From NCBI RefSeq assembly GCF_003574835.2, contig NZ_CP063196.1, positions 1,550,001 to 1,614,000 of the forward strand: a stretch of DNA of 64,000 nucleotides, read 5' to 3'. The position numbers and the translations under genes were made by a program. Position 1 is the stretch's first letter. Each line of letters begins with the position of its first letter. A model generated the notes under the pieces. It made no database searches. It was not told the DNA's origin and saw only the letters and a list, made by a program, of their open reading frames with translations. Shown here in pieces: positions 14,033 to 28,970 of the stretch. This DNA comes from Thermobifida halotolerans (GTDB lineage: Bacteria > Actinomycetota > Actinomycetes > Streptosporangiales > Streptosporangiaceae).

Positions 14033-15523
14033 CTAGTGGTTTCCGGCCAGTTCTCCGGTGAGGGTGCTGTGGATGCGGGCGCTGTGGGAGTTCAGACCGA
14101 CGATCTCCACGGTCTTGCCGCGGTCGGCGTACTTGGTGGTGACCGCGTCGAGCGCCGCGACGGAGGAGGCGTCCCAGATGTGCGCCGCGCTCAGGTCGAT
14201 GATGACGTGCTCGGGGTCGTTTCTGTAGTCGAACTGGTAGACGAGGTCGTTGCTGGAGGCGAAGAACAGCTCGCCGGTGACCACGTAGACGATGTGGCCG
14301 CCCTCGGGGTCGGGCACCGAGGAGACCTCGACCAGGTGGGCGACCCGGCGGGCGAAGATGACCATGGCGGTGATGACCCCGGCGACGACGCCGATGGCGA
14401 GGTTGTGGGTGACCACCACGATCACCACGGTGACCGTCATGACGGTGGTCTCGCCGATGGGCATCCGCCTGAGCGTCGCGGGGGCGACGGAGTGCCAGTC
14501 GAACGTCGAGACCGACACGATGATCATCACGGCGACCAGGGCGGCCATGGGGATCTGGGAGACCCAGGGGCCGAAGGCGATGCACAGGACCATCAGGAAC
14601 ACGCCGGCCAGGAACGTGGAGAAACGGGTCCGGGCCCCCGCGGTCTTGACGTTGATCATGGTCTGGCCGATCATCGCGCAGCCGCCCATGCCGCCGAAGC
14701 AGCCGGTGACGATGTTGGCGATGCCCTGGCCGATGGCCTCGCGGGTCTTGTTGGAGTGGGTGTCGGTGATGTCGTCCACCAGCTTGGCCGTCATCAGCGA
14801 CTCCATCAGCCCGACCAGTGCGAACGCGAACGCGTAGGGGGCGATGAGGGTGAGGGTGTCCAGGGTGGGCGGCACGTCGGGCAGGCCCGGTGCGGGCAGG
14901 GAGGAGGGCAGGGCCCCCTTGTCGCCGACGGTCGGCACGGCCAGGCCCGCACCGATCGTCAACGCGGTCAGCGCGACGATGGACACCAGCGGGGCGGGCA
15001 CGGCCCGGGTCAGCCTGGGGAAGAGGACCATGATGGCCAGCGCGCCCAGGACCAGGGGGTAGACGGTCCACGGAACGTCGCGCAGTTCGGGGACCTGGGC
15101 CATGAAGATCAGGATCGCCAGGGCGTTGACGAAGCCGACCATGACCGAGCGGGGGACGAACCGCATCAGCTTCGCCACTCCGAGCGAGCCGAGGAGGACC
15201 TGGAAGACCCCGCCCAGGATGACCGCGGCGACGAGGTGGCCCAGCCCGTACTCGCGCGCCAGTGGCGCCACGACCAGGGCCATCGCGCCGGTGGCCGCGG
15301 AGATCATCGCCGAGCGGCCGCCGACGACGGAGATGACCACGGCCATGGTGAAGGAGGCGAACAGGCCGACGCTGGGGTCGACTCCGGCGATGATCGAGAA
15401 CGAGATCGCCTCGGGGATCAGCGCGAGCGCGACGACCAGGCCCGCCAGAATCTCGGTGCGTACCGTGGACAACGGGGGGAGGGGGAGTCGGCGGCGCGGC
15501 CGGACCGTTCGTAGGAGGTTCAA
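14033..15523 (-). CDS. SulP-family inorganic anion transporter with STAS domain
   Basis: The 496-residue protein begins with the SulP signature ([27 protein letters not shown]). About ten membrane segments follow, with the conserved [18 protein letters not shown] loop, then a cytoplasmic STAS domain from ~residue 390 ([37 protein letters not shown]). SulP proteins carry sulfate, bicarbonate or other oxyanions; the substrate here is unknown. The start is uncertain: the TTG at 15523 lacks a ribosome binding site, but TAGATT lies 8 bases upstream, so a leaderless start is possible. A copy of the repeated element lies 258 bases upstream, oriented towards this gene. Confidence 0.85.
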
Positions 15524-15777: not shown

Positions 15778-15799
15778 ATCCTACCCTTACGTCACTGTC
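15778..15799 (-). promoter_or_regulatory. Repeated operator-like element, copy 1 (towards SulP)
   Basis: Read on the minus strand the site is GTGACGTAAGGGTAGGAT, matching the shared core ACGTNAGRGTAGRNT. The core ends in a -10-like TAGGAT pointing to the SulP gene. The left half is degenerate. Between the site and the SulP start lie several short perfect hairpins, including CCGCCGGA/TCCGGCGG (15741-15763) and TCTCCAGTGGAGA (15644-15656), so a long structured leader is possible. See the MerR entry for the regulon reading. Confidence 0.5.
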
Positions 15800-15899
15800 T
15801 GGATGGCTCCGAACGCATGAGAGTGTCCTCACAGACCCTGGTGAGGAAGGAAACCGTCGGGCAGGTGCCCGGTCTCCGACCGCCCGACGGTTCCCGTGC

Positions 15900-16402
15900 G
15901 GCGTCAGCCGGGCCGCCCCGAGCGGTCCGTGGCCGCGGTCAGGAGGTGCCCCGGCGGACAGCACGAAGAGCGCGACGAGTACGGGCAGCGCTCCCAGCGC
16001 CAGGACGGCGGGCTGGTAGGACCCGGACACCCCGTATCCGGCCGACAGCAGGAGCGGCCCCAGGACGGTGGAGCCCACGGCGACGGACCGGGTCAGACCG
16101 CGCAGCGAGCCCAGCGCGGCCGCCCGTGGTAGTGGGGGAGTGCGGCGGTGTGCACGGCACGTGTCGCCGCGGCCGCCGCGCCCAACGTGACTCCGTAGGC
16201 GGTGGCGGTGACTCCCGGCGGCACGAGCGGCAGCGGCGCGAGGCCGCCCGCGTGTGCGGCCATCGTCACGCAGACGAGCAGTTTGGGGGAGAAGCGGTCG
16301 GTGGCCGAGCCGAACAGCAGGGAGGCGGCCAGCCCCGCGAGGGCCTGCGGCAGGAAGTCGGCGGCGGCTTGGGCCGGAGTGAGTCCCTGCCAGCCCAGGA
16401 CC
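15900..16402 (-). pseudogene. MFS transporter pseudogene (C-terminal half only, frameshifted)
   Basis: On the minus strand from ~16402 the translation is that of an MFS permease's second half: LGWQGLTPAQAAADFLPQAL, LLFGSATDRFSPKLLVCVTM, AYGVTLGAAAAATRAVHTAALPHY. Near 16120 the frame must shift by one base to continue into the helix GSTVLGPLLLSAGYGVSGSY and ALGALPVLVALFVLSAG. One missing G in the run around 16121 would explain it. The first six helices are absent. The remnant sits between copies 1 and 2 of the repeated element, and copy 2 points into it, so an efflux pump was probably part of this regulon before decay. The rest of the 15524-16588 gap has no other gene. Confidence 0.65.
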
Positions 16403-16495
16403 GGGGCCCCGCCGGGAGCAGACGGCCTCCCCCGCGTGCCCGCCGGAGCGTCCCGGGTCTCTCCGCTCCTCCCCGGGGCCGCCCTCTCCGGGAAC

Positions 16496-16516
16496 CTACT
16501 CTAACGTTAGAGATGG
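16496..16516. promoter_or_regulatory. Repeated operator-like element, copy 2
   Basis: The site holds the perfect palindrome CTCTAACGTTAGAG within a wider CTACTCT...AGAGATGG context. On the minus strand it reads ACGTTAGAGTAGGTT, matching the shared core with a -10-like TAGGTT directed to the MFS remnant. It is also only 72 bases before the plus-strand zinc-ribbon gene, so it could serve both directions. Confidence 0.55.
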
Positions 16517-16588
16517 TTTGTTCTCCGTTCATGTCCGGCGGATCGCCCGCCGGACGGAGGAAGCGCCCGAACGGGAAGGAGAGGGCTC

Positions 16589-16963
16589 ATGCCCCGACAG
16601 CTGACCTGCCCCGAGTGCGGGGAGACCGAGGAGCTCACCGGGCGGCGCACCGACGAGGGCATCGAGGTGTCCTGCGACAGGTGCGGGGCGCGGTGGCCGC
16701 GCGACACCCCCTACTCGTGTGCCACCTGCGGTGGTCAGGACATCCACATGCGGGCCCAGGCCCTCACCCAGTACTCCCGGGGGACGCAGTTGTCCATCGT
16801 GGGCCTGCACCACGTCCCGCTGTGCGCCGTGTGCGACGCCGAGATGCTCGAACGCGCCAACCAGCACAAGCCGGTCCCCGGCCGCTACGAGCCCGCCGCC
16901 GTCCACAGGCGCGAGGACGGCGACGGCGGCGCGGCGTCGGAGTCCCTCATCCTGCCCCGGTGA
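16589..16963 (+). CDS. Small zinc-ribbon protein, uncharacterised
   Basis: The 124-residue soluble protein has four CxxC pairs in its first two thirds: CPEC (~7), CDRC (~29), CATC (~44) and CAVC (~79). These suit two structural zinc sites. The C-terminal ~40 residues are polar and probably disordered. AAGGAGAG precedes the ATG by 7 bases. I do not recognise a named family. Zinc ribbons of this size often bind nucleic acids, ribosomes or RNA polymerase, which would fit neighbours coding for RF3 and an RNA polymerase helicase, but this is only inference. Copy 2 of the repeated element lies upstream and copy 3 downstream. Confidence 0.7.
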   Translation: MPRQLTCPECGETEELTGRRTDEGIEVSCDRCGARWPRDTPYSCATCGGQDIHMRAQALTQYSRGTQLSIVGLHHVPLCAVCDAEMLERANQHKPVPGRYEPAAVHRREDGDGGAASESLILPR

Positions 16964-17126
16964 CCCCGGGCGGGCGCGGCACGCGGAGAACGGGTTCCGC
17001 GTGTCCGCGCGCGGAGGAACGTGGCTGCGGCGGCACGGACGTCGACAAAGGGGAGACGTCCGCGCCGCCGCGAGGGAAAAACCAGCGAGTACGCGTCGGA
17101 AGCGGTGCTGGACTCCCGTCCGGAAA

Positions 17127-17150
17127 CTCTACTCTCCCGTGAGGGTAGAC
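17127..17150. promoter_or_regulatory. Repeated operator-like element, copy 3 (orphan)
   Basis: CTCTACTC and GGGTAGAC flank TCCCGTGA to form a 24-base imperfect dyad. It matches the element upstream of the small gene at 19531 at all but a few central positions. It lies between the 3' ends of the zinc-ribbon and RF3 genes, with no convincing gene start in either direction, so it may be a relic. An ATG touches it at 17151, but only a short, unconvincing frame follows. Confidence 0.45.
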
Positions 17151-17187
17151 ATGAACGGCGGGCCCCGCGGGAACCGCCGAGGAGCGT

Positions 17188-18819
17188 TCAGTTCTGTTCT
17201 TCGATGCCTCCGGCGAGGAGGGGTTCCATGAGCAGGGTGGGGTGGTCGCGTTGGATGACCTTGAGGCGCCACTTGTTGTGGACCAGGACCAGCAGCGCGT
17301 TGTCGGAGCGGCGGGTCAGGACCTCCGCGCCCGACAGGCCGTGCAGGACGGGGGCGGAGTCGGGGTCGGTGCGTCGGGCCAGGCCGTAGTCCAGGTGTGC
17401 CAGTTCCACCGGGGCGCGGAACTCGTGTTCCATGCGGTGGCGTACCACGTCGAACTGCAGTGGGCCGACCGCGGCCAGTACCGGGGCCTGTTCGCCGCGC
17501 ACGTCGGAGACCAGCACCTGGACCACGCCTTCGGAGTCGAGTTGGGCGATGCCGCGGCGGAACTGCTTGTAGCGGCCCGAGTCCAGGGCGCGGGCCACCG
17601 CGAAGTGTTCGGGCGCGAAGCTGGGAATGGGGGGAAACTCCACCTTCGGCCCGTCGTAGAGGGTGTCGCCCACCCGCAGGGATTGGGCGTTGACCAGCGC
17701 GATCACGTCTCCGGGGTAGGCGGTGTCCACCGTGTGGCGCTCGCTGCCGAACACCGCCTGGGTGTACTTGGTGGCGAACGGGCGGCCCGTGGCGGCGTGG
17801 GTGAGGACCATGCCCCGGTCGAAGCGGCCGGAGCAGACGCGTACGAACGCCATCCGGTCGCGGTGCTGCTTGTCCATGTTGGCCTGCATCTTGAACACGA
17901 ATCCGGCGAACGGCGCCTCCACCGGGCGGGGCGCGCCGGTGGTGTCGGTGCGCGCCGAGGGCGCGGGGGCCAGGTCGATGAGGGTGCGCAGCAGGTGGGA
18001 CACCCCGAAGTTGGGCAGGGCGGCGCCGAACAGCACGGGCGAGGACCTGCCCGCCAGGAACGACGCCTCGTCGAAGTCGGCGCCGATCTCGTCCAGCAGG
18101 TCGAGTTCCTCGGTGGCCTGGTGCCAGGCGGGGCCTTCCAGTTCGGCGGCCGCGGCGTGGTCGAGGGTCTGCTCCAGGGCGCGGGTGGCGCCGCCGGGGG
18201 TGCGGTGCAGTCGGGTGTAGGTGTTGTCGCGGGTGCGGTCGATCAGGCCGCGGAAGTCTCCGGCGATGCCCACCGGCCAGTTCAGGGGGGTGGGGCGCAG
18301 TCCGATGCGCTGCTCGATCTCGTCGAGCAGTTCCAGGGGTTCGCGGCCGGGCCGGTCCCATTTGTTGACGAACGTGATGACCGGGATGTTGCGGTTGCGG
18401 GCCACGTCGAACAGTTTCAGGGTCTGGGGTTCCAGGCCCTTGGCCGAGTCCAGCAGCATCACCGCGCAGTCCACCGCGGCCAGTACCCGGTAGGTGTCCT
18501 CGGAGAAGTCGGCGTGGCCGGGGGTGTCCAGCAGGTTGAGTACCCGGTCGTCGTAGTCGATGCGCAGTGCGGCGGAGGTGATGGAGATGCCGCGGGCCTG
18601 TTCCATGTCCATCCAGTCCGAGGTCACGCCCCGCCGGTCGCCCTTGCCGTGCACGGCTCCGGCCGAGGTGATCGCCGCCGCGTGCAGGGCCAGGGCCTCG
18701 GTCAACGTCGACTTGCCCGCGTCCGGATGCGAGATCACCGCGAACGTACGCCGCCGCCCCGCCTCGTTCCGGATCTCGGCTGTCACCCGGTGCCCGGACG
18801 TGTCCGCTGGTGCGCTCAA
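17188..18819 (-). CDS. prfC: Peptide chain release factor 3 (RF3), translational GTPase
   Basis: The 543-residue GTPase shows RF3-specific motifs: G1 SHPDAGKSTLTEALALH (the His-Pro-Asp-Ala form typical of RF3), G3 DTPGHADFSEDTYR and G4 NKWDR. Domain II and the RF3 C-terminal domain follow (PVLAAVGPLQFDVVRHRMEHEF). RF3 recycles RF1/RF2 from ribosomes after peptide release and helps clear faulty complexes. The TTG at 18819 is chosen because GAGGAG lies 6 bases upstream; a GTG 14 codons later is a weaker option. Only 20 bases separate it from the MerR stop, so both form one operon. RF3 under a dedicated MerR regulator is unusual and suggests stress-induced rather than housekeeping use. Confidence 0.9.
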   Translation of the reverse strand: MSAPADTSGHRVTAEIRNEAGRRRTFAVISHPDAGKSTLTEALALHAAAITSAGAVHGKGDRRGVTSDWMDMEQARGISITSAALRIDYDDRVLNLLDTPGHADFSEDTYRVLAAVDCAVMLLDSAKGLEPQTLKLFDVARNRNIPVITFVNKWDRPGREPLELLDEIEQRIGLRPTPLNWPVGIAGDFRGLIDRTRDNTYTRLHRTPGGATRALEQTLDHAAAAELEGPAWHQATEELDLLDEIGADFDEASFLAGRSSPVLFGAALPNFGVSHLLRTLIDLAPAPSARTDTTGAPRPVEAPFAGFVFKMQANMDKQHRDRMAFVRVCSGRFDRGMVLTHAATGRPFATKYTQAVFGSERHTVDTAYPGDVIALVNAQSLRVGDTLYDGPKVEFPPIPSFAPEHFAVARALDSGRYKQFRRGIAQLDSEGVVQVLVSDVRGEQAPVLAAVGPLQFDVVRHRMEHEFRAPVELAHLDYGLARRTDPDSAPVLHGLSGAEVLTRRSDNALLVLVHNKWRLKVIQRDHPTLLMEPLLAGGIEEQN

Positions 18820-18839
18820 CGACTGCTCCTCTTCCTCGC

Positions 18840-19244
18840 TCAGGGGCGGGTGCCGATCTTGTTCCGTTGCGCGCGCAGCCGATCGCCGAACTCCTCCGCC
18901 ATGGCCAGTTGTTCGCGCAGTGCGGTGCAGCGTGCCTCGATCGCCTCCTCGAACAGATCGAGTCGGGCGGTCAGTGCGGCGCGCTCGCGTTCGTCGGCCG
19001 CACCGGATTCGAGTCGGTCGATGACGTCCAGCAGGTCGCGGGTCTCCTCCAGGCTGAACTCCAGCGGTTTCATCCGCTTGATCAGCAGGAGTCGTTCCAC
19101 GTCGGACTCGGTGTAGAGGCGGAAGCCCCCCTTGGAGCGCGCGGACGGCTCGACCAGGCCCACCTCGCCGTAGTAGCGGATCGTCCGCAGCGACAGGCCC
19201 GTGCGTTCGGCCACCTCGCCGATCTGCATGTGGTCCCTGTGCAT
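18840..19244 (-). CDS. Short MerR-family transcriptional regulator, probable master of the local regulon
   Basis: The 134-residue protein has an N-terminal winged helix (MQIGEVAERTGLSLRTIRYYGEVGL, then GGFRLYTESDVERLLLIKRMK). A long dimerisation helix and a short coiled tail follow. There is no TipAS- or Mta-type ligand domain and only one cysteine, so the signal is not obvious from sequence. AGGAGG lies 7 bases before the ATG. A copy of the repeated element lies 21 bases upstream (19265-19284), consistent with MerR autoregulation from a dyad at the promoter. Five more copies lie within 7 kb. That this MerR binds them is inference; I know of no described regulon with this element. Confidence 0.85.
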   Translation of the reverse strand: MHRDHMQIGEVAERTGLSLRTIRYYGEVGLVEPSARSKGGFRLYTESDVERLLLIKRMKPLEFSLEETRDLLDVIDRLESGAADERERAALTARLDLFEEAIEARCTALREQLAMAEEFGDRLRAQRNKIGTRP

Positions 19245-19264
19245 CGGACCACCTCCTCAACAAA

Positions 19265-19284
19265 TCTACCCTAACGTTATGGAC
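19265..19284 (-). promoter_or_regulatory. Repeated operator-like element, copy 4 (merR-prfC promoter)
   Basis: The minus strand reads GTCCATAACGTTAGGGTAGA followed by TTTG, so TAGATT forms a -10-like hexamer ending about 20 bases before the MerR ATG. The core ACGTTAGGGTAG matches the other copies. No good -35 is visible 17-19 bases upstream, which fits an activator-dependent promoter. Confidence 0.6.
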
Positions 19285-19394
19285 GACTTTCCGCGATCCG
19301 GTCGCCGAAGTACCGCCGACTGACGCGTAGCCGACCCGGACTGGTAGGAGAGCCTGCCACAGATCGGTCGGGCATCCCCGCCGCAGTCCGGCCT

Positions 19395-19418
19395 CTCTAC
19401 TCTTACGTAAGGGTAGAC
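19395..19418 (+). promoter_or_regulatory. Repeated operator-like element, copy 5 (best dyad)
   Basis: This is the most symmetric copy: CTCTACTCTTAC then GTAAGGGTAGAC, a 24-base near-perfect palindrome centred on TACGTA. TAGACT at its right edge is a -10-like hexamer pointing to the small gene at 19531. The left arm carries the matching sequence for the opposite direction. Confidence 0.6.
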
Positions 19419-19530
19419 TCCGGGAGGGGTGGCGCGCCCTCCGGCTCGGCGCCCGGGGCCCCGCACGGTACGCCACCGGTTCGGGACAGCCGCCTTCCCC
19501 AGGCAACGGCGACCTCGAAGGGAAAGAACC

Positions 19531-19812
19531 ATGGCGACCTACCGCCTCCGGCTCCGCGACGGTTCCACGGTCACCCACCGGGCCCTGCGGATCCGCACCG
19601 ACGCCACCACCCTCTACCTGGAGGACCGGGCCGCCGGGGCCTGGCGCCCCGTCGTCGACTACCGGCTCGACGACGTCGAACGGCTGCAACGCCGGTTCGT
19701 CGAGAACAACGGGAGCTGGGTCTGGATGGAGGAGCGCCTCTCCGTCTCGCGGACCGGCCACCGGCCCTGGCGGGACTCCGCTCCCCCGAACCCCTCCGGC
19801 CAGGTCGGCTGA
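19531..19812 (+). CDS. Small protein of unknown function
   Basis: The 93-residue protein starts with beta-strand-like, polar sequence (MATYRLRLRDGSTVTHRALR, TLYLEDRAAGAWRPVVDYRL), a charged helix (DDVERLQRRFVE) and a proline-rich tail. There is no signal peptide or membrane helix and no recognised family. The ATG at 19531 follows GAAGGGAAAG. It is divergent from merR-prfC, and copy 5 of the repeated element lies 113 bases upstream. Its role is unknown; the shared element suggests co-regulation. Confidence 0.6.
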   Translation: MATYRLRLRDGSTVTHRALRIRTDATTLYLEDRAAGAWRPVVDYRLDDVERLQRRFVENNGSWVWMEERLSVSRTGHRPWRDSAPPNPSGQVG

Positions 19813-19911
19813 CGGACGAAAAGCCCCGCCCCTCAGGGGTCCGGAGCGCTGTGGAACCGGTGGCCGGCCCGCGCCGCTTCGCGGCGGACGCCGCCGCGCG
19901 GCCCCGCCGCC

Positions 19912-22035
19912 TCAGGGACGGAGTCCGCGCAGGGAGGCGGGCAGCGGTTCGGCGTGGACGATGTGCAGACCGCTCACCGCACGGGTCAGGGCCACGTAGA
20001 GACGGTTGAGGCCGCGCGGTTCGGCGGTGACGATCCGGGCCGGTTCGGCGACGACGACCGAGTCGAACTCCAGTCCCTTGGCGAGGGTGGCGGGCACGCA
20101 CACCAGCCGGGCGGACTCCAGCGCGTCCTCGTCCGCACCGAGCAGCGCGGGCTCCAGCCCCTCGGCGGACAGCCGCTCACGGATGGCGGGAACGTCGGAG
20201 TCGGCTGCGACGAGGCCGACGGAACCGTCGCCCCCGAGCGCCTCCCGGCAGGCCGACACGAGCGCGTCGAAGTAGTCGCTCCCGGCGGCCTCGGTGACCC
20301 GCAGCGCTCCGGGGGCCTGCCGCACTCCGGTGGGCGCTCCCAGGCCGGGAGCGATCTTTGGGAGCAGCCGCGCGGCGTAGTCGATGATCTGCGCCGGGAC
20401 TCGGAACCCGCGGTCGAGGACCGCCAGGCGGGCGTCGGGCTGGCCGAGGTGGGCCAGCAGGGTCGACCAGTCGTCGACCGCCGCCGGGCTGGTGCCCTGG
20501 GCGATGTCGCCGAGCACGGTGAGCGACCCCCGGGCGCAGCGGCGTCCGAGGGCCCGGCACTGCATCGGGCTGAGGTCCTGGGCCTCGTCGACGACGATGT
20601 GGCCCAGCGTCGACGGCCGCTCGATCAGGGCGGCGGCCTCGTCGATGAGCGCCAGGTCCTCGACGGACCAGCGCGCCGACTTCGGACCGCGCGGCCGCCC
20701 GGGCAGCAGGATCGCCTCCTGCTCCTCGTCGGTGAGGATGCCCCCGGCGGCGCGGGCGAGTCGGTCGCGGTCGGTGAGCAGGCCCAGGACCAGGCGGACC
20801 GGGTCGGCCTTGGGCCACATCTTCCGGGCGGCGGCGCCGATCGCCCGGTTGCGGCGCAGTTCGCTGAGCGTGCGCGCCTCGTAGGGCTCGCCGGAGAACT
20901 CGATCCGCTGCATCACCAGGTGGGCGAGGCGCTGGGCGAGCAGGGTCGGCCCCGCCCCGTAGCCGATGCCGCGCTCCCGCAGTTCGGTGAGGACCTCGGC
21001 CAGTTCGTCGGGGTAGAGGCGCCACCTGCGCGCGCCCTTCGAGACGACCAGGGCCTCCTCGAGCGGCCGCGGCTGCGCCCACAGATCCCGGAAGACGACC
21101 TCGGCCATGCGGGCGTCGCCCTTGATCCGGGCGGCGTGCGGCTCCTCGACCCGGGAGACGGGGACCCGGCCGATCAGCTCCTCGACGGTGGTCTGGCGCA
21201 CCCCGACCTCGCCGAGCGCGGGCAGCACGTTGCGGATGTAGGACAGAAAGGAGCGGTTCGGTCCGACGATGGCCACGCCGCCGTCCTGGCGCAGCCGGTC
21301 CCGTTCGGTGTAGAGCAGGAAGGCGACGCGGTGCAGGCCCACGGCGGTCTTGCCGGTGCCCGGGGCGCCCTGTACGCACAGCGCGGGCCGCATCGGTGCG
21401 CGGACCAGTTCGTCCTGCTCCGGTTGGATGGTGGCGACGATGTCGCGCATCGGCCCGGAACGGGGGCGTTCGATCTCCGCGGTCAGCAGCGCACCGGCCG
21501 CGTCGGACGCCTCCCCTTCCCCGGGGGCGGACAGCGGCTCGTCCTCGTAGGCGGTCAGCTCCGCGGAGTCGGAGAACCCGTAGCGGCGGCGCAGCAGTAC
21601 TCCCTGCGGGTCGTCGCGGCCGGCCCGGTAGAACGCGGCGGAGACCGGCGCACGCCAGTCGATGACCAGGGCGTCGCCGTCGGCGTCGTGCACGTGCCGC
21701 CGCCCGATGTAGACCCGGTCGGCGTCGGGGGCGCGCACGGGCGAGGACGAGTCGGCGGGCCCGCTCTCGTAGACGGTGCCGGGCGGGTAGTCGAGCCGTC
21801 CGAAGAACAGCGGGACGTCGGGCAGGTCGACCAGGGCGTCGGCCCGCCGCTGGCGGTCCATGACCAGCAGCCGGTTGGTGAAGGTGTAGTCGGCGTCCTC
21901 GGAGCTGTCCTGCACGGTCTCGGTGGTGACGACGTCCTCGTGCATGCGCCGCAGGGCGGCGCGCGCCTCGGAGAGGAAGGCGCGTTCGGCCCGGATCTCG
22001 GGATCGAGCTCGAAAGAGGGCACGGTCTCGGACAT
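19912..22035 (-). CDS. HelR/HelD-like RNA polymerase-associated UvrD-family ATPase
   Basis: The 707-residue protein has the actinobacterial HelD layout: an N-terminal helical hairpin (residues ~10-65), an insert with IDWRAPVSAAFYRA (~125-138), Walker A GAPGTGKT (223-230), Walker B VVDEAQDLSP (481-490) and C-terminal helicase motifs (AKGLEFDSVVV; NRLYVALTRAVSGLHIVH). HelD/HelR proteins remove RNA polymerase from stalled complexes; HelR proteins also displace rifamycins. The inducer element known for helR (RAE) was not seen. Instead copy 6 of the repeated element lies 136 bases upstream, pointing at the gene. I chose the ATG at 22035; an upstream extension is possible but is low-complexity. Confidence 0.85.
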   Translation of the reverse strand: MSETVPSFELDPEIRAERAFLSEARAALRRMHEDVVTTETVQDSSEDADYTFTNRLLVMDRQRRADALVDLPDVPLFFGRLDYPPGTVYESGPADSSSPVRAPDADRVYIGRRHVHDADGDALVIDWRAPVSAAFYRAGRDDPQGVLLRRRYGFSDSAELTAYEDEPLSAPGEGEASDAAGALLTAEIERPRSGPMRDIVATIQPEQDELVRAPMRPALCVQGAPGTGKTAVGLHRVAFLLYTERDRLRQDGGVAIVGPNRSFLSYIRNVLPALGEVGVRQTTVEELIGRVPVSRVEEPHAARIKGDARMAEVVFRDLWAQPRPLEEALVVSKGARRWRLYPDELAEVLTELRERGIGYGAGPTLLAQRLAHLVMQRIEFSGEPYEARTLSELRRNRAIGAAARKMWPKADPVRLVLGLLTDRDRLARAAGGILTDEEQEAILLPGRPRGPKSARWSVEDLALIDEAAALIERPSTLGHIVVDEAQDLSPMQCRALGRRCARGSLTVLGDIAQGTSPAAVDDWSTLLAHLGQPDARLAVLDRGFRVPAQIIDYAARLLPKIAPGLGAPTGVRQAPGALRVTEAAGSDYFDALVSACREALGGDGSVGLVAADSDVPAIRERLSAEGLEPALLGADEDALESARLVCVPATLAKGLEFDSVVVAEPARIVTAEPRGLNRLYVALTRAVSGLHIVHAEPLPASLRGLRP

Positions 22036-22170
22036 GGTGGAGACGACCTCGGTGCTTGTCGGAGCGGTGGACTGCGGGGCGGTGGGGGCCGGACGGCCGG
22101 CGCGCCGGGGGGGCGGCGCGTGCCCGCGGGGCCTGGATCGCCGTCGTGACCGGGGGCTACCGCCACGCAA

Positions 22171-22190
22171 ACTCTACCCTTACGTTAGAC
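22171..22190 (-). promoter_or_regulatory. Repeated operator-like element, copy 6 (HelR promoter)
   Basis: The minus strand reads GTCTAACGTAAGGGTAGAGT, matching the core ACGTNAGRGTAGRNT with a -10-like TAGAGT towards the HelR-like gene. It lies in the ~320-base gap between that gene and the end of the complex I operon; nothing else was recognised there. Confidence 0.6.
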
Positions 22191-22353
22191 ACATTTCGCC
22201 GCGCCGGTACGGCTGCTCCTCCACCGCGGCCCGTGGGACGCGGCCGTGCCACCGGCCCCGGACCGGGACGCGCACCGGCCGGGGCGGCCCGGGACAGAAG
22301 CGCCGAGGAGGCCTCCGCAGCCGTCGCCGTGCCCCTCCACCGCCCCGGTGCCT

Positions 22354-23778
22354 CTAGGACAGCACGGTCAGGAACGGCCCCGCGGCGACGCCCAGGGCCA
22401 CCGACAGCGCCGCCGCGGCGACCGCCACCGCGGCGGCGCCACGCCCCTGCGGTCCGGCGCCTGCCGCCGGTCCGCGGCCGTCGTCGGACGGGACCCGCCG
22501 AAACAGCGGGAGAACCCACCGCAGGTAGTAGAAGAGGCTGGCGACGGTGTTGGCGAGCGCCACCACCACGAGCCAGACCAGACCCGCGTCGAAGGCGGCG
22601 GTGAAGACGGTGAGCTTGCCCACGAACACCGCCGTCGGCGGCGTACCCACCAGGCCCAGCAGGCAGACGACGAGACCGAGGGACAGCCACGGGCGGCGGC
22701 GGAACAGCCCTGTGAAGTCGCCGAGGTCGCGCGCTTCGGGCAGGGCGCACACGACGGCGAAGGCCCCGAGGTTGGTGACCGTGTAGGCGGCGAGGTAGAA
22801 CAGCAGGCCCGGCAGCGCGAGCCCGGTCCCGACCGCCGCGACCGCCGTGAGCAGGTAACCGACCTGGCCGACGGTGGAGTAGGCGAGCAGGCGGCGCGCG
22901 TTGTCCTGGAAGAAGGCCGCGAGGTTGCCCAGGCTCATCGTGGCCGCGGCCACCAGCGCGACCAGCGGCGGCCAGTCCACCTCCACCCCCGCCAGCACCT
23001 GCCCGCCCAGCCGGAACAGCGCCGCCAGCGCGCCGACCTTGGGCACGGTGGTGACGAACGCGGCCACCGGCGCCGACGCGCCCTCGGTGACGTCGGGAAC
23101 CCAGAAGTGCGCGGGCACGCCCCCGGCCTTGAACAGCAGCCCACCGGCGACCGCGACCGCGCCGACGGCGACGAGGGCTCCGGACGCGTCGGGCAGGCGC
23201 CGCGCCAGCTCGGTGTAGCCGGTGGCGCCCCCGGCGCCCAGCAGGAGGGCGGCGCCCACCAGCAGCACGACGGTGAAGAGCGCGCCCATCAGGTAGTACT
23301 TCAGGGCCGCCTCGGTGCCTCGGGCGTCCTTGCCGAACCCGGCGAGGGCGTACAGCGGGATGCTGGCGAGCAGGTAGCCGACGGCCAGCACCAGCAGGTC
23401 GCCCGCCCCCGCGACAACGATCGTGCCGAGCGCGCCGAGGAGCAGCAGCACGTGGTACTCCGTCTCCCGGCGGTGGCCCGCCACCCGGTCGGCCGACAGC
23501 AGGACGACCAGCGCGGTCCCGGCCAGCACGACGGCGCGCACGGCGTGCAGCAGCACGTCCAGCACGTAGGTCCCCGAGGCCGTGGCCTGCGGGGGTCGGC
23601 CCGCGAGGACGATCGTGGCGGCCAGGGCGACGGCCAGTGCGGAGAGGGCGAGCAGCCGCACGATCCACTGGCGGTGGCGGGGCAGCCAGCCGCCCAGCAG
23701 CAGTCCGGTGACGGCCGCCACCGCCACGGCGGCCTCCGGCACGAGCGCGACCGGGTCGACTCCTCCCATGCCGCTCAC
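22354..23778 (-). CDS. nuoN: NADH-quinone oxidoreductase subunit N-like antiporter subunit
   Basis: The ~474-residue, 14-helix protein belongs to the Mrp-antiporter-like complex I subunits. Channel lysines are present: LLFKAGGVPAHFW, TTVPKVGALAAL and FVGKLTVF. The helix-5 glutamate (GxELxSxPLY in canonical NuoN) is not conserved: the segment reads GYLLASIPLYAL. GTG at 23778 overlaps the nuoM stop (GTGA); ATG at 23769 is the alternative. It is the last gene of the operon. Proton pumping by this subunit may be altered. Confidence 0.88.
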   Translation of the reverse strand: MSGMGGVDPVALVPEAAVAVAAVTGLLLGGWLPRHRQWIVRLLALSALAVALAATIVLAGRPPQATASGTYVLDVLLHAVRAVVLAGTALVVLLSADRVAGHRRETEYHVLLLLGALGTIVVAGAGDLLVLAVGYLLASIPLYALAGFGKDARGTEAALKYYLMGALFTVVLLVGAALLLGAGGATGYTELARRLPDASGALVAVGAVAVAGGLLFKAGGVPAHFWVPDVTEGASAPVAAFVTTVPKVGALAALFRLGGQVLAGVEVDWPPLVALVAAATMSLGNLAAFFQDNARRLLAYSTVGQVGYLLTAVAAVGTGLALPGLLFYLAAYTVTNLGAFAVVCALPEARDLGDFTGLFRRRPWLSLGLVVCLLGLVGTPPTAVFVGKLTVFTAAFDAGLVWLVVVALANTVASLFYYLRWVLPLFRRVPSDDGRGPAAGAGPQGRGAAAVAVAAAALSVALGVAAGPFLTVLS

Positions 23779-25289
23779 CGGACCACCACCGCCGCGACCG
23801 CCCGCGCGGCCGGGTCGATGACGTCCAGCAGGAACCACGGCAGCAGGCCGACGGCCACCGACAGTGCCGTCAGCGCCGCGATCGGCACCGCCTCGAAGGC
23901 ACGCAGGTCGGTGACGCGGGTGTTGTCCGGGGTCCGCTCCGCGCCGAGGAACAGCCGTTGCAGCGCCCGCAGGAACAGCGCCGCGGTGAGCAGGATGCCG
24001 ACCAGGGCCAGTGCGGTGGGCACCGGCGCCGGTCCCAGACTGCCGGTGAAGATCTGGAACTCGGCGATGAATCCGGAGAGCCCGGGCAGACCGAGCGCGC
24101 CGAACGCGGCCACGGCCGTCAGCGCCGCGAACCGGGGCGCCGGGGCGGCCAGACCTCCGTAGGAGGCCATGTCGTAGGTTCCGGCCCGCGCGTACAGGAC
24201 CCCGGAGAGCAGGAACAGGGCACCGGTGAGCAGGCCGTGGCTGACCATCTGCGTCACCGCGCCGGTGACCGCCACCGCGGCCGCGTCCGCCTCGGCCCCG
24301 GTGGCCAGCCCGGCCGCGCCCAGTCCCAGCAGGATGTAGCCCATGTGGTTGACGGAGGTGTAGGCGACCATCCGCTTGAAGTCGGTCTGGGCCAGCGCGA
24401 CCAGTGCTCCGTACAGCACCGAGACCACTCCCAGGGCCACGAACACCGAGGCGTGGGCGCGCCACGCCTCGGGCAGGACCGGCATGGCGATGCGGACGAA
24501 GCCGTAGGTGCCCATCTTCAGCAGCACCCCGGCCAGGATCGCCGAACCGGCCGCGGGCGCGTCGGTGTGGGCGGGCGGCAGCCAGGTGTGGAACGGCACC
24601 AGGGGGGTCTTGACCGCCAGACCGAGGGCCACGGCCAGCAGCACCAGGCCCCCGGCCGGGCCCCGGCCGTCCAGCGGGGTCTGGCGGGCCAGCTCCACCA
24701 TGTCGAAGGTGCGCGGGTCGGCGGCCAGGTACAGGCCGATGAAGCCCAGCAGCAGCGCCAGCGACCCGACGAACGTGTACAGGAAGAACTGCAGCGCCGA
24801 GCGCGCGGCGGGGCCGTGGCCCCATCCGGCGATGACGAAGTACATGCCGACGATCGACAGGTCGAAGAAGACGAAGAACAGGATCAGGTCGAGCGCGACG
24901 AACAGGCCCAGCGACACCGTCTGCAGGAACAGGAACAGCGCGGCCTGACCGCGCACCCGCTCCGTCCGCCGCAGCGAGTACACCGCGCAGGCGCAGAACA
25001 GGACCGCCGTCATCGCCACCAGCGGCAGGGACAGGCCGTCCACCCCGATGTGGTAGCCGGAGCCGACGCTGGGGATCCAGCGCAGGTCCGTCTCGTAGGC
25101 GATCGGTCCGGCCGTACCGACCGCGGCTGAGGGGGAGCGGACGTAGCCGACCCACAGGCCGACGACCAGAGCCAGGTCCACGGCCGTCACCGCGATCCAG
25201 GTCCACGCGACCGTCCGGTCGCCCGGTCGGGGCAGCACGAGCAGCACCACGGCGGCGACCAGCGGCAAGAAGACCACGACGGAGAGCAC
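23775..25289 (-). CDS. nuoM: NADH-quinone oxidoreductase subunit M-like antiporter subunit
   Basis: The 504-residue membrane protein has NuoM channel motifs: VKTPLVPFHTWLPPAHTDAP (lysine and histidine of the central channel), LLKMGTYGFVRI and SGFIAEFQIFTGS (C-terminal glutamate). The helix-5 glutamate, normally FFExxLxPMY, is aspartate here (FFDLSIVGMYFVI). The GTG at 25289 begins 3 bases after the nuoL stop and the gene overlaps nuoN by 4 bases, so translation is coupled. Confidence 0.9.
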   Translation of the reverse strand: MLSVVVFLPLVAAVVLLVLPRPGDRTVAWTWIAVTAVDLALVVGLWVGYVRSPSAAVGTAGPIAYETDLRWIPSVGSGYHIGVDGLSLPLVAMTAVLFCACAVYSLRRTERVRGQAALFLFLQTVSLGLFVALDLILFFVFFDLSIVGMYFVIAGWGHGPAARSALQFFLYTFVGSLALLLGFIGLYLAADPRTFDMVELARQTPLDGRGPAGGLVLLAVALGLAVKTPLVPFHTWLPPAHTDAPAAGSAILAGVLLKMGTYGFVRIAMPVLPEAWRAHASVFVALGVVSVLYGALVALAQTDFKRMVAYTSVNHMGYILLGLGAAGLATGAEADAAAVAVTGAVTQMVSHGLLTGALFLLSGVLYARAGTYDMASYGGLAAPAPRFAALTAVAAFGALGLPGLSGFIAEFQIFTGSLGPAPVPTALALVGILLTAALFLRALQRLFLGAERTPDNTRVTDLRAFEAVPIAALTALSVAVGLLPWFLLDVIDPAARAVAAVVVR

Positions 25290-25292
25290 GGA

Positions 25293-27155
25293 TCACCCCA
25301 GCAGGACGAGCAGGACGAGCAGGACGGCCAGGAACGCCATGGCGGCAACGGCCTGGACGTAGTACTGGTGCAGCAGCCCGGTCTGCGGCCGCCGGGCCCA
25401 CCGGCCCGCGGAGCGCAGCCCCGAGGCCACCGCGCGCACCGCGCCGTCCAGGCGCGGCTCGATCCGCGCGCCGGCGAGCCGGGCCAGGCGCACCCCGGCC
25501 GCGGCGCCCGAGCCGACCCCCGCCGCGAGAACCCGGTCGTCGAACGTCGCCAGCGCACGCGACACCGCCAGGACAGGCGCGACCGCACCGGTACGCGCGG
25601 CCCGCTCCAGCCACAGCCACTCCCGCGACCACCGCGGCCGTGCCCGCGCGGCCGCCCTGAGCGGGGCGGGGCTCCGGTCGCCGTGCGCCCACGCGACCGC
25701 CACGAGCACCGCGACGGCGAGCGTCCCCGAGACAACCATCTCTCCGACGCCCGGCGAGGCGGCGCCCTCCTGCCCCAGCAGGCCGCGCCACCACGCGGCC
25801 AGCGGCGGCAGCGCCACCACGCCGAGCCCGGCAGCCGCCGCGGCCAGCACCGGAAGCGGAATCCGCTCGGAGGCGGGCACCCGGCCCGCCTCCGAGCGGG
25901 GGGCCGGGGCCGACCACACGGCCACCAGAGCCCTGGCGGCGTAGGCGGCGCTGACCGCCGAGGCGGCCAGGCCGGCGGCGTAGAGCGCCCCCGACGCCGC
26001 CAGGGCGGCTGCCAGCACCTCGTCCTTGGCCACCCAGACCGCCAGCGGCGGCAGCCCGCCCACGGCGAGCGCCCCCACCGAGAACACCGCGCCGACCAGT
26101 GGACGGCGGCGGGCCGCGCCGCGCAGTTCCCGGAGATCCTGGGTGCCCAGCGTGGTCAGCCAGGCACCCGCGGAGAGGAAGAGCAGGCTCTTGGCCGCCG
26201 CGTGCGCGGCGAACTGCAGCGCGCCTCCGCCGAGGGCGCCCACTCCGGCGGCCAGCACCACGAACCCCAGTTGCGAGCAGGTCGAGGCGGCCAGCAGTTG
26301 CTTGAGGTCGCGCTGGACGTAGGCCACCGCGCCCATCAGCAGGGCGGTGAGCACGCCGATCCAGGCTGAGGCCGACGCGGCCCAGCCCGTGGCGGCCAGC
26401 GCGGGGTGGACGCGCAGTAGCAGATACCCTCCGGCCGCGACCATCGTCGCCGAGTGCAGCAGCGCGGAGACCGGGGTGGGACCGGCCATCGCGCGGGACA
26501 GCCAGAAGCTGAACGGCAGTTGCGCGGACTTGCCCAGCGCGGCGACCAGCAGACCGGCGACCGCGGCGTCGCGCCACGCGCCGCCGAGGCCGGGCAGCGC
26601 CGCCAGCTCCAGGGCCGCCGCGCCACCGGCCAGGGCCGCCCCCGCCGCCAGGTACATGCCCAGGTCGGCGGTGCGCGTGGTGAGGAAGGCGACGGCCGCC
26701 GAACGCCCCCGAGCGGGATCGCGCCACCAGTAGGCGATGAGCGCGTAGGAGACCGCGCCCATGACCTCCCACGCGACGAGCAGCCCCAGCAGGTCGACGG
26801 CGGTGACCGTGGCCAGCATGGCCGAGGCGAACAGCAGCAGGAAGCCGTGGTAGCGGGCGCGCGCCTGATTCGGCCCGAGGTCTCCGACGGAGAACACCGC
26901 CACGGCCGCGAACACCGCGGTGACCGTGGTCACCCCCACCGCCGCCAGCCCGTCGACGGCGAAGGCGACGCCGATCGAGGGCAGCGCCGCAACCGGGAGC
27001 GTCGGCGCGGTGACCGCCGCCGCCACGCCCAGTCCGACCAGGAGCACCGCCACGGCCACGGCCAGCGGCGCGGCCACGGTGTCGGCCCGGCGCCCCGACA
27101 CCAGCAGCGCGGCCCCGGCCAGTGCGGGCAGTGCGAGCAGAATCCCCAGTACCAC
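25293..27155 (-). CDS. nuoL: NADH-quinone oxidoreductase subunit L-like antiporter subunit
   Basis: The 620-residue protein has the NuoL core: LLVAWEVMGAVSYALIAYWW (helix-5 Glu), GKSAQLPFSFWLSRAMAGPTPVSALLHSATMV and VWVAKDEVLAAA (Lys). The C-terminal end has a lateral-helix-like region and final helix. GTG start at 27155, 10 bases after nuoK ends. Key charged residues look intact, unlike those in the M and N subunits of the same operon. Confidence 0.9.
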   Translation of the reverse strand: MVLGILLALPALAGAALLVSGRRADTVAAPLAVAVAVLLVGLGVAAAVTAPTLPVAALPSIGVAFAVDGLAAVGVTTVTAVFAAVAVFSVGDLGPNQARARYHGFLLLFASAMLATVTAVDLLGLLVAWEVMGAVSYALIAYWWRDPARGRSAAVAFLTTRTADLGMYLAAGAALAGGAAALELAALPGLGGAWRDAAVAGLLVAALGKSAQLPFSFWLSRAMAGPTPVSALLHSATMVAAGGYLLLRVHPALAATGWAASASAWIGVLTALLMGAVAYVQRDLKQLLAASTCSQLGFVVLAAGVGALGGGALQFAAHAAAKSLLFLSAGAWLTTLGTQDLRELRGAARRRPLVGAVFSVGALAVGGLPPLAVWVAKDEVLAAALAASGALYAAGLAASAVSAAYAARALVAVWSAPAPRSEAGRVPASERIPLPVLAAAAAGLGVVALPPLAAWWRGLLGQEGAASPGVGEMVVSGTLAVAVLVAVAWAHGDRSPAPLRAAARARPRWSREWLWLERAARTGAVAPVLAVSRALATFDDRVLAAGVGSGAAAGVRLARLAGARIEPRLDGAVRAVASGLRSAGRWARRPQTGLLHQYYVQAVAAMAFLAVLLVLLVLLG

Positions 27156-27165
27156 GGCGACCGCC

Positions 27166-27471
27166 TCAGTCCCGCAGGTCGGCGGCGGAGTCGACCATGT
27201 CGACGTCGCGGGCCCGGAAGATGGCGGTGGCCACGGCGAACCCGACCGCCATCTCCACCGCCATGGCGGTGATCGCCACCAGCACGAGCACCTGCCCGTC
27301 GGGGCGGTCGGCCGACAGGTGGAACCAGAACGCGGCGGCCGCCACGATCACGGCGTTGACCATCAGCTCCAGGCCCATCATGATCATGACGACGCCCTGC
27401 TGGCTGAGCGCCCCGTACAGGCCGACCGCCAGCAGCGCGGCCGCCAGCAGCAGGAACAGTTCCAGGCTCAC
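27166..27471 (-). CDS. nuoK: NADH-quinone oxidoreductase subunit K-like
   Basis: The 101-residue, three-helix subunit keeps both buried glutamates (MMGLELMVNAVIV and MAVEMAVGFAVA). The GTG at 27471 overlaps the nuoJ stop as GTGA. NuoK joins the proton path between NuoH/J and the antiporter subunits. Length and residues are normal. Confidence 0.9.
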   Translation of the reverse strand: MSLELFLLLAAALLAVGLYGALSQQGVVMIMMGLELMVNAVIVAAAAFWFHLSADRPDGQVLVLVAITAMAVEMAVGFAVATAIFRARDVDMVDSAADLRD

Positions 27472-28034
27472 CGGCCCACACCTTTACGGACGGGGGCGTC
27501 GGCCGCGCCGCGCCGCAGGTCGTCGCCGTAGCGGTCGTAGCGGCCGCGGTCGGTGGCCAGCACGACCGCGGCGACCATCGTGGCGAACAGCACCATGCCG
27601 ACGACGACCATCACGAGCATGTGCGAGCCCATCAGCGCCGCACCCAGCGACTCCGTCGGGTCCGGTGGTGGGGCCGCTCCGGCCTCAGGCCAGGGCACCA
27701 GCCAGATCCCGGCGGCAAGGGCGGTGAACACGGCGACGGACACCGCCAGGGCGCCCCGCCGGTTGTGCACCATGGCCATCGGTGTCAGCCCGGCCGGGTT
27801 CATCATGTACATGATCATGAAGACGGCCATGACCAGCATCTCCATGACCATCATCAGGATGATGAGGACCCCCAGGTAGGACAGGTCCAGCAGCAGCAGC
27901 ACGGCCACCCCGGTGAACACGAACGAGGCCAGCAGCGCGAACGTCGCGCGGGCCATGGAGTCCACCCGGAACACCGCGATCCCGGCGGCCACGGCGCCCA
28001 CCGCGCAGACCATGAAGACGACCATTTCCCCCAT
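27468..28034 (-). CDS. nuoJ: NADH-quinone oxidoreductase subunit J-like
   Basis: The 188-residue protein with about five membrane helices includes YLGVLIILMMVMEMLVMAVF, matching the conserved YxGAIxVLFxFVVMM helix of NuoJ. Upstream there is MVFMVCAVGAVAAGIAVFRVDSM, the usual NuoJ start. A methionine-rich stretch (VMEMLVMAVFMIMYMM) is notable. It is overlapped by nuoK by 4 bases and starts 6 bases after the nuoH stop. Confidence 0.87.
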   Translation of the reverse strand: MGEMVVFMVCAVGAVAAGIAVFRVDSMARATFALLASFVFTGVAVLLLLDLSYLGVLIILMMVMEMLVMAVFMIMYMMNPAGLTPMAMVHNRRGALAVSVAVFTALAAGIWLVPWPEAGAAPPPDPTESLGAALMGSHMLVMVVVGMVLFATMVAAVVLATDRGRYDRYGDDLRRGAADAPVRKGVGR

Positions 28035-28040
28035 CGGCGG

Positions 28041-28970
28041 TCACACCCATTCCAGGAGCACGAACACGGACACGGCCAGCGCCTGCAGCAGCGTCACCGG
28101 CAACAGCACCACCCAGCCGACCTCCACGAAGCGGTCCACGCGCACCGTGGGCAGCCGGTGCGCCAGCCACACCAGCACCGCGAGCACCGCCGCGGTCTTG
28201 AGCAGCGACCACAGCCAGTCCGGCAGCAGCGGTCCCGCGCCGCCGCCCAGGAACAGCGGGACCGCCATGGCCGAGGCCGCGGCGAGCATCAGGTAGCGGC
28301 CGGTGCGCAGCACCAGGGCGTCCACCCCCGACAACTCGGCGGCCACACCGCCCGCCACGTCCCGCCCCACCGCCTGGTCGAGGGGCCCCCAGAACGCCAT
28401 CGCCAGCGCCGAGAGCAGGTAGACGGCGAACGCCACCGGCATCACCGCGGCGAACCACACGTCCTGCTGCGCGGCGACGATGTCACCGACCCGCAGCGAC
28501 CCGGCCCCCACCGCCGCCGTGATCAGCGCGAACATGTGCGGCAGTTCGTAGGCCAGCCCCAGCGCCAGGAACCGGTAGGCGCCCAGCAGCCCCCACACCG
28601 AGTCGGCGCCCCAGCCCGCCAGCCACACCGCGGCCCAGATCAGCACCTCCATGGCGTTGAACCAGACCACGCCGACCGACAGGTCGCCGACCACCCGGCC
28701 GCCGAGCGGAACCACCAGCACGGCCATGGTCGCGGCCACGGGGACCAGCGCCACGCCCGACTGCCGCAGCAGCGTGTCGGCCCCGGGAACCGAGCGGCGC
28801 TGCCCCACCAGCAGCCGCGCCGCCTCGCGTCCCGGGGCGGCCAGGCCCGCGGTCGGCGCTGCTCCGGCGGCGTGCGCGCGCAGCAGCGCCGCGAGGGCCG
28901 CCGCCCCGTAGGCGAGGACGGCGAGCAGCAACGGGGCGGCCACGGCGCCCCACACGGGGGTCTCAACCAC
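28041..28970 (-). CDS. nuoH: NADH-quinone oxidoreductase subunit H-like, degenerate quinone-site loops
   Basis: The 309-residue protein with about eight helices aligns with NuoH at AAELSGVDALVLRTGRYLMLAAASAMAVPLFLGG. This matches the canonical TEYSG...AEYxNM...LFLGG region. The first loop (ERKxxxRxQxRxGP) is not seen. The glutamate-rich quinone loop (RAPFDLPEAExELVAG) is replaced by GPLDQAVGRDVAGGVAAE. NuoH normally forms the quinone tunnel entrance, so a standard quinone site is doubtful. The gene overlaps the end of the upstream NuoB/D-like gene by 8 bases. Confidence 0.82.
   Translation of the reverse strand: MVETPVWGAVAAPLLLAVLAYGAAALAALLRAHAAGAAPTAGLAAPGREAARLLVGQRRSVPGADTLLRQSGVALVPVAATMAVLVVPLGGRVVGDLSVGVVWFNAMEVLIWAAVWLAGWGADSVWGLLGAYRFLALGLAYELPHMFALITAAVGAGSLRVGDIVAAQQDVWFAAVMPVAFAVYLLSALAMAFWGPLDQAVGRDVAGGVAAELSGVDALVLRTGRYLMLAAASAMAVPLFLGGGAGPLLPDWLWSLLKTAAVLAVLVWLAHRLPTVRVDRFVEVGWVVLLPVTLLQALAVSVFVLLEWV

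Follow-up and report, generated by a model that had tools for sequence, protein, structure and literature searches.

A candidate MerR regulon of unusual content in Thermobifida halotolerans: one palindrome near RF3, HelD-type helicase and SulP genes

Introduction

Can one short regulator of the MerR family place ribosome rescue, RNA polymerase rescue and anion transport under a single switch? The question is raised by a 64,000-nucleotide stretch of Thermobifida halotolerans DNA (contig NZ_CP063196.1, positions 1,550,001 to 1,614,000; hereafter the window) in which a 20-bp dyad, CTACYCTNACGTNAGRGTAG, occurs in six copies across 15.78–22.19 kb, among genes for a MerR-type protein, RF3, a HelD-type helicase, a SulP transporter, a zinc-ribbon protein and a small protein. 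A preliminary description, made from the sequence alone, had assigned all these genes to one MerR regulon. Comparison with relatives supports a MerR regulon well, through the co-occurrence of dyad and regulator and the recurrence of sites upstream of the same genes, and binding of the dyad by MerR is predicted. The proposal does not stand in full, as RF3 and the helicase would be lineage-limited members and SulP is the most constant putative target.

The mechanism we propose is a probable one. A dimer of MerR would bind the palindrome AACTCTACYCTNACGTNAGRGTAGAGTT, overlapping the −10 box (TAGRNT) of the target promoters, and would switch together the merR-RF3 operon, sulP, the genes of a small beta-barrel protein and of the HelD-type helicase, and an MFS gene that has since decayed. 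The zinc-ribbon gene across the site of the MFS remnant is perhaps also switched. MerR would be an autorepressor that, under stress, leaves the operator or alters its hold on it. Going by the families to which they belong, the extra RF3 and HelD would then release ribosomes and RNA polymerase that have stalled, and SulP would transport an anion.

Results and discussion

The dyad in the window and its genome

The six copies start at 15781, 16496, 17129, 19266, 19397 and 22174, with four, two, one, three, no and four mismatches to CTACYCTNACGTNAGRGTAG respectively, and a search of the whole 64-kb window at up to five mismatches returned none beyond these. Forty first-order Markov sequences, used as a control, gave a mean of 0.175 and a maximum of 2 places at up to four mismatches. 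The core ACGTNAGRGTAGRNT is matched exactly at 15778, 16493, 19263 and 22171 on the minus strand and at 19405 on the plus strand, and with one mismatch at 17126 on the minus strand. All six sites with a common core, as first described, were therefore recovered. Four copies have 20–22 self-complementary positions out of 28; the copies at 15781 and 22174, with 14 and 10, are good half-sites only.

It had also been claimed that five of the six carry a −10-like TAGRNT facing a gene or a remnant, and this holds for SulP, the MFS remnant, merR, the small open reading frame (ORF) at 19531 and the helicase. Copy 1 (15778–15800, minus strand) presents the slot TAGGAT to SulP, 255 bp from the start of that gene, and scores 22.1 with the position weight matrix (PWM) described below. 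Copy 2 (16493–16518, no strand assigned, PWM score 35.4) lies between the MFS remnant, with the slot TAGGTT, and the zinc-ribbon gene, with the slot ATGGTT. Copy 4 (19263–19285, minus strand, 32.7, slot TAGATT) is 19 bp 5′ of the merR start codon, in agreement with the claim of a site directly upstream of the short MerR gene. Copy 5 (19394–19419, plus strand, 39.3, slot TAGACT), the copy free of mismatches, is 111 bp 5′ of the small ORF, and copy 6 (22171–22193, minus strand, 24.5, slot TAGAGT) is 136 bp 5′ of the helicase start. Copy 3 (17126–17151, no strand assigned, 36.6) is placed between convergent gene ends, its TAGAGT pointing to the zinc-ribbon gene and its TAGACA to RF3, in each case to the 3′ end.

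Across the 5.5 Mb genome the exact core occurs at 5 places, all within this cluster (reversed control, 0), and the dyad at up to three mismatches occurs at 4, again all within the cluster (reversed control, 3 places). The cluster is local and unique in its genome and is not a genome-scattered motif.

Co-occurrence of the dyad with MerR

The dyad tends to accompany the regulator from genome to genome. Among 150 genomes of the family it is present, at up to two mismatches, in 36 of the 44 that carry MerR (E ≤ 1e-25) as opposed to 5 of the 106 that do not; the reversed control gave 6 of 44 and 20 of 106. Among 393 genomes of the class, at up to one mismatch, it occurs in 65 of 126 with a MerR orthologue (E ≤ 1e-30) as opposed to 4 of 267 without, and the reversed pattern in one of the 393 (G458; G and L numbers are our handles for genomes and loci). 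Fisher p values, which ignore kinship, are 1.5e-21 for the family and 1.1e-33 for the class. At most 28 MerR candidates per genome were scored in the family and at most 10 in the class, so that genomes counted as MerR-negative may conceal orthologues; two of the four MerR-negative class genomes with a dyad, G382 and G426, do have a weaker MerR beside it.

In 12 further genomes with a close MerR orthologue the dyad (up to three mismatches) was present in all 12, within the 20 kb examined. At nine of these loci tblastn, in which the small-protein query was one base out of frame, detected one or more of the four candidates SulP, RF3, zinc ribbon and small protein; at L036, L042 and L044 it detected none. 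The best 80 MerR loci kept from a scan of named genomes span Nocardiopsis, Streptomyces, Micromonospora, Actinomadura, Nonomuraea, Isoptericola, Demequina, Tessaracoccus, Prauserella and others. The dyad, at up to three mismatches, is present at 68 of them, and their neighbours include SulP (60 loci), RF3 (22), the zinc ribbon (8), a HelD-type helicase (7) and the small protein (4). On these pattern searches and relatives' loci the element is neither scattered at random nor lacking in conservation upstream of orthologues.

The regulator

The merR gene (18840–19244, minus strand) encodes 134 residues. The helix-turn-helix (HTH) domain is matched by PF13411 (66.5 bits, cut-off 21.6) and PF00376 (50.3, cut-off 28.2), and the dimer helix or MerR-DNA-bind domain by PF09278 (29.2 bits over 25.4). 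Models of metal sensors were missed by a wide margin (CueR 76.4 bits, cut-off 147.4; ZntR 66.8, cut-off 168; CadR-PbrR 67.8, cut-off 151) and the SoxR score is also far below its cut-off. There is no conserved cysteine; the only one at the effector end becomes arginine, isoleucine, serine or alanine in several of 13 aligned orthologues. Metal sensing was rejected on the grounds of these CueR, ZntR and CadR scores and the loss of the cysteine.

A tree of MerR sequences (98 rows, 127 columns), though weakly resolved, places the labels of partner genes in clusters, requiring 30 changes compared with a mean of 42.8 for shuffled labels, and none of 200 shuffles was as low. Separate clades of SulP-linked and RF3-linked MerR were looked for and not seen, as the labels do not form single groups. 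The closest rows outside the genus are Nocardiopsidaceae. One row of the alignment, L045, has a frame break at the C-terminal end and was kept unchanged.

Putative target genes in relatives and the place of SulP

Neighbouring genes at 93 loci were clustered and their upstream regions scored with a 28-bp PWM. The genes were called by a crude ORF script of our own and many of the loci are near relatives of one another. The PWM was built from sites of the same loci with up to two mismatches, the limit used in collecting sites outside the window, and the scores are partly circular, the contrast between families less so. A site lies upstream of 63 of 67 SulP genes, 8 of 8 DUF2795-like genes (a label that rests on 22.8 bits, below the cut-off of 25), 6 of 6 zinc-ribbon, 5 of 5 HelD and 4 of 4 small-protein genes, 53 of 88 merR, 8 of 26 RF3 and 2 of 19 MFS genes. 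The RF3 count is low because RF3 often comes second after merR, the order MerR then RF3 on the same strand being seen at 16 of the 26 RF3 loci. Fifteen of the 19 other neighbour families listed have no upstream site at any of the 93 loci.

The SulP/STAS anion transporter of the window (14033–15523, minus strand) contains the domains PF00916 (153 bits over 23.2) and PF01740 (STAS, 34.8 over 22.6). The narrower SulP model TIGR00815 was missed (236 bits, cut-off 380) and the BicA and DauA models gave scores far below cut-off. SulP, the commonest neighbour of MerR in relatives, lies within 65 of the 93 loci.

These figures lend about even chances to a different account, in which MerR primarily regulates SulP and responds to pH or to an anion or oxyanion. 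RF3, HelD and others would have joined later because an extra dose helps under the same stress, and their pairing would be secondary and lineage-bound. SulP is the commonest partner both at the 80 named loci and at the 93, nearly always with a site upstream; 3-kb stretches from other class families show a SulP-MerR pair next to the dyad (L162, L163, L165–L171; 30 loci examined); and the majority of RF3 and HelD genes are dyad-free. Arsenic-type genes near some loci, together with the constancy of SulP, also point to an anion or oxyanion as the signal. However, RF3 and two unlike classes of HelD are found under the dyad in several genera, which looks to be beyond drift, and neither the BicA nor the DauA model supports a particular substrate for SulP.

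On reading the sequences near MerR and SulP at L040, L043, L146, L156 and L166 we noted ArsR-type regulators, NAD(P)-flavoproteins and arsenate-reductase-like phosphatases. At L166 an ArsP-like permease, assigned by Pfam, faces the dyad.

RF3 and the helicase

RF3 (prfC, 17188–18819, minus strand) passes the equivalog models NF001964 (612.9 bits, cut-off 473) and TIGR00503 (548, cut-off 467) and contains the RF3_C domain PF16658 (120.5 bits over 40.1). The gene is separated from merR by 20 bp on the same strand and the two are likely to form one operon. Control of RF3 by MerR, as first described, is then plausible by way of the merR promoter; RF3 has no site of its own in the window, and only 7 of the best 30 family loci have one.

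The helicase (19912–22035, minus strand) had been called HelR-like, and the models do not bear that assignment out. It is nearer to the HelD of Mycobacterium smegmatis (244.9 bits to PDB code 6yxu) than to that of Bacillus subtilis (110 bits to 6wvk), and it falls below the cut-offs of all four HelR/HelD NCBIfam models listed, among them the HelR models NF041258 (325.5 bits, cut-off 1100) and NF041254 (284.7, cut-off 750) and HelD_MYCSM (298, cut-off 1051). The palindrome of the rifamycin-associated element (RAE) has no match at up to three mismatches in the 64-kb window. According to PMC8655204, not every gene of the HelR group has a clear RAE. In the terms of that paper the helicase is class II-like, outside the narrow HelD_MYCSM model, and recycling of RNA polymerase is its predicted function.

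Helicases of Streptomyces and Prauserella that also bear the dyad belong to the other class. That of L123 gives 333.5 bits to the B. subtilis and 91.4 to the M. smegmatis protein, and those of L100, L114, L118 and L156 share 68–88% identity with it. The dyad is upstream at 7 of the 8 HelD loci in the 93-locus set, L127 being the exception. The presence of two unlike HelD classes under one operator suggests that recruitment of a helicase has been selected, with the qualification that the Streptomyces loci are mutually related.

A second RF3 gene occurs in the same genome (G000:C1:5030258–5031868). The two genes share 99.7% DNA identity over 1579 bp (window 17188–18766 and G000:C1:5030255–5031833, the latter equal to L252:12256–13834), in a block that starts at the stop codon and leaves out the first 53 bp of the window gene, and their flanks are unlike. 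At the protein level 528 of 543 aligned positions are identical and 13 of the 15 differences are within the first 18. Such near-identity with unlike flanks points to a recent copy or to gene conversion, leaving one RF3 that is putatively controlled by the dyad and one that is dyad-free. Because the proteins are nearly the same, the island would give a second dose of RF3 and not a special RF3, and we infer that this dose can be switched.

A second HelD (5027022–5029088, 66% identical) lies 1.2 kb from the second RF3, and no site scoring at least 15 is present in the 20 kb around the pair. With these dyad-free copies elsewhere, the island appears to supply extra and perhaps switchable ones. RF3 and HelD are also found 1.2–8.2 kb apart at L252 and L255–L258 (genomes G000, G063, G060, G010 and G072), where no site reaches 15, and at L253 (G042), with a site of 27.4 before RF3; the pair thus seems to keep company outside the MerR island. 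Next to the helicase promoter region, on its upstream side, the ORFs read as a row of NADH-dehydrogenase-like genes (22354–30348, minus strand).

Architecture of the predicted operator and its possible mode of action

Alignment of 151 site contexts from seven target families, 53 of them from SulP, extends the palindrome to AACTCTACYCTNACGTNAGRGTAGAGTT, and in the SulP contexts conservation is confined to it. The sequence TANNNT occupies the slot that faces the gene in 51 of 53 SulP contexts (mirror slot, 3 of 53) and 11 of 13 small-protein contexts (mirror slot, 2 of 13), a clean overlap of the operator with a predicted −10 box. For RF3 both slots are good, 11 of 13 facing the gene and 7 of 13 in the mirror. 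At least four matches to TTGACA are found at spacers of 17, 19 and 20 bp in 7.3, 8.6 and 4.6% of the 151 contexts, compared with a background of 2.3%, and more than 90% show no −35-like box at any one spacer of 14–22 bp. The position of the operator over the −10 box and the scarcity of recognizable −35 boxes lead us to take MerR as an autorepressor.

The classical alternative is an activator dimer that, on receipt of a signal, bends and untwists a long −35/−10 spacer to turn the promoters on. CueR and BmrR, members of the MerR family with solved structures, act by such distortion. The Pfam MerR domains, a dyad centre upstream of the −10 box and the TTGACA-like excess would all fit, but few contexts have the −35 box that such a mode calls for and the dyad crosses the −10 box, so that we regard activation as unlikely.

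Points against the regulon as proposed

A number of observations weigh against a closed, MerR-repressed regulon of the composition given above. The first concern co-occurrence: 61 of the 126 MerR-bearing genomes of the class have no dyad at up to one mismatch, and 12 of the 80 named loci, five of them Cellulomonas contigs, have none at up to three. Others concern the rescue genes. In a control, the best 30 family loci for RF3 and for HelD (one per genome) were searched for a site up to 700 bp upstream. Neither gene had a site in any of the 11 MerR-lacking genomes of its set, a result in favour of the regulon. Among the 19 MerR-bearing genomes of each set RF3 had a site in 7, one of them weak (13.4), and HelD in 5, one of them weak (16.5) and two with a small-protein gene in between. 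This leaves 12 of 19 RF3 and 14 of 19 HelD loci of MerR-bearing genomes with no site. Dyad-free RF3 and HelD genes are thus in the majority in the family, and it would seem that only some lineages recruited a copy to the switch.

The orientation of the slots is a further difficulty. For DUF2795-like genes (8 of 9 facing the gene, 7 of 9 in the mirror) and HelD (6 of 8 and 7 of 8) the two directions are about equal, and for the zinc ribbon (1 of 7 and 7 of 7) and merR (11 of 48 and 39 of 48) the good slot mostly points away. The preference for repression over activation is drawn from the geometry of the sites, and a slight −35-like excess is seen at 17 and 19 bp. In the window itself copy 3 faces no gene. 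The site that adjoins the end of the zinc-ribbon gene in Nocardiopsis sp. TSRI0078 (L082) precedes the small-protein gene, an arrangement which suggests that copy 3 may be the remnant of a rearrangement.

Finally, four of the other neighbour families do have upstream sites (K7, 5 of 14; K11, 2 of 8; K21, 2 of 4; K27, 2 of 4) and the target set is therefore not sharply closed. They may be further targets or may lie across a divergent site. In f17, one family of the class (L173–L181, L185), whose genomes have up to four MerR matches, the same dyad precedes FkbH-like and other acyl-enzyme genes, suggesting that such dyads have further uses; f17 may hold a second regulon that shares the operator.

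Pfam gives no family for K7 (sites at L100, L101, L106, L109 and L151), and K11 (L096 and L108) is RNase J-like by eye. Sites of K21 occur at L042 and L102, and those of K27 at L090 and L091. Within f17, L177 and L185 match FkbH_N and L175 an acyltransferase, the others resembling L177 by eye. At L082 an ADP-ribosylglycohydrolase gene (L082:4122–5141) has a dyad at its start.

The signal

What would MerR respond to? The company of RF3 and HelD points to blocked gene expression, and a response to inhibitors of translation or transcription, as first suggested, is one conceivable form of it. MerR might sense stalled gene expression itself, one signal releasing RF3, HelD, the small barrel and the zinc ribbon as a coupled rescue regulon of actinomycetes, with natural antibiotics or a stress relieved by SulP as the source; the barrel is perhaps RNA-binding and the zinc ribbon perhaps polymerase-binding. 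We hold this extended form to be doubtful.

It is very improbable that the sites arose by chance or as a mobile repeat and are no operator: two copies are half-sites and the count in the genome at up to three mismatches is close to that of the reversed control, but all four dyads and five exact cores fall inside 6.4 kb, chance being rejected by the window count, the Markov control and this genome-wide clustering, the element tracks MerR in the 150 family and 393 class genomes, and the SulP contexts are conserved only inside the palindrome.

A defence island was considered and rejected, as the PADLOC matches are to generic helicase and HTH regions only (GajB up to 28.9 bits; mad1 45.7 bits to the HTH).

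Small proteins and the MFS remnant

The small protein (19531–19812, plus strand, 93 residues) has no Pfam family above cut-off. Its model is a confident beta barrel over residues 1–70, with a predicted local distance difference test score (pLDDT) of 94–97. No PDB entry matches the fold below E 0.001; the Sm-like proteins Hfq, Rof and RimP appear at E values of about 0.5–1.1 with template modelling scores, by query length, of less than 0.4, only a hint that the barrel may bind RNA. The family comprises 24 ORF rows at 22 distinct places among the ORFs near dyads, to which the search was confined.

The second protein (16589–16963, plus strand, 124 residues) is double zinc-ribbon-like, with eight cysteines invariant in 10 aligned sequences and sub-threshold matches only in Pfam. 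Its model is of moderate confidence (mean pLDDT 72), and the best fold matches, ZifS and RPB9, are weak (E 0.06–0.1). Its inclusion in the regulon, as first described, is favoured by the sites upstream of all six zinc-ribbon genes scored in relatives and disfavoured by the slot facing the window gene, ATGGTT, which is not TANNNT. On the other side of the same site, the MFS transporter remnant (15944–16401, minus strand) survives as pieces in different frames, detected by tblastn with MFS proteins of relatives at up to 71% identity over 93 residues. It is kin of an MFS gene found 3′ of RF3 in several relatives.

Comparison with known systems

In its N-terminal HTH, short dimer helix, size and sequence matches the window MerR resembles the CueR, CadR, MtaN and TipA chains, and the dyad likewise lies at promoters including that of its own gene. 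It differs from the CueR, CadR and TipA type in having no conserved cysteine, in scores far under the CueR, ZntR, CadR and SoxR cut-offs and in sites with no conserved −35 box.

One close parallel for the helicase is the RAE/HelR response of actinobacteria to rifamycin, in which, according to PMC12802891 and PMC8655204, a palindrome also overlaps the promoter of a HelD-type helicase. Here the palindrome is different, the helicase is under the HelR cut-offs, and merR-RF3 and SulP share the element. The helD/pps rifampicin alarm of Bacillus also controls a HelD helicase but, as described in PMC12802891, by two convergent promoters, whereas here a dyad lies beside a MerR gene. BldC and other developmental MerR-like proteins of Streptomyces are likewise small actinomycete DNA binders of the MerR family (PMC13118837, in part); BldC binds direct repeats as multimers, to judge from a title cited there, and the window element is a palindrome. 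RF3 is reported in PMC12282138 as a target of FurA, a regulator other than MerR, in Anabaena.

The available portions of PMC8655204, PMC12802891, PMC5015018, PMC4991794, PMC13118837, PMC12282138 and PMC11819568 mention neither the motif nor a link of MerR, RF3 and HelD. A wider search of open-access full text gave no report of the motif or gene set among the matches listed, and six motif strings returned 0 papers.

Conclusions

The comparative case for a MerR regulon of unusual content is strong. The regulation of helD in actinomycetes is understood in part, and PMC12802891 describes the RAE-binding factor as unknown. The locus described here offers a regulator, a motif and a brief list of targets that are testable in laboratory streptomycetes, and gives context to the small beta-barrel and double zinc-ribbon families, both uncharacterized. 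It would bring the rescue of ribosomes and of RNA polymerase together with anion transport under what appears to be a single switch.

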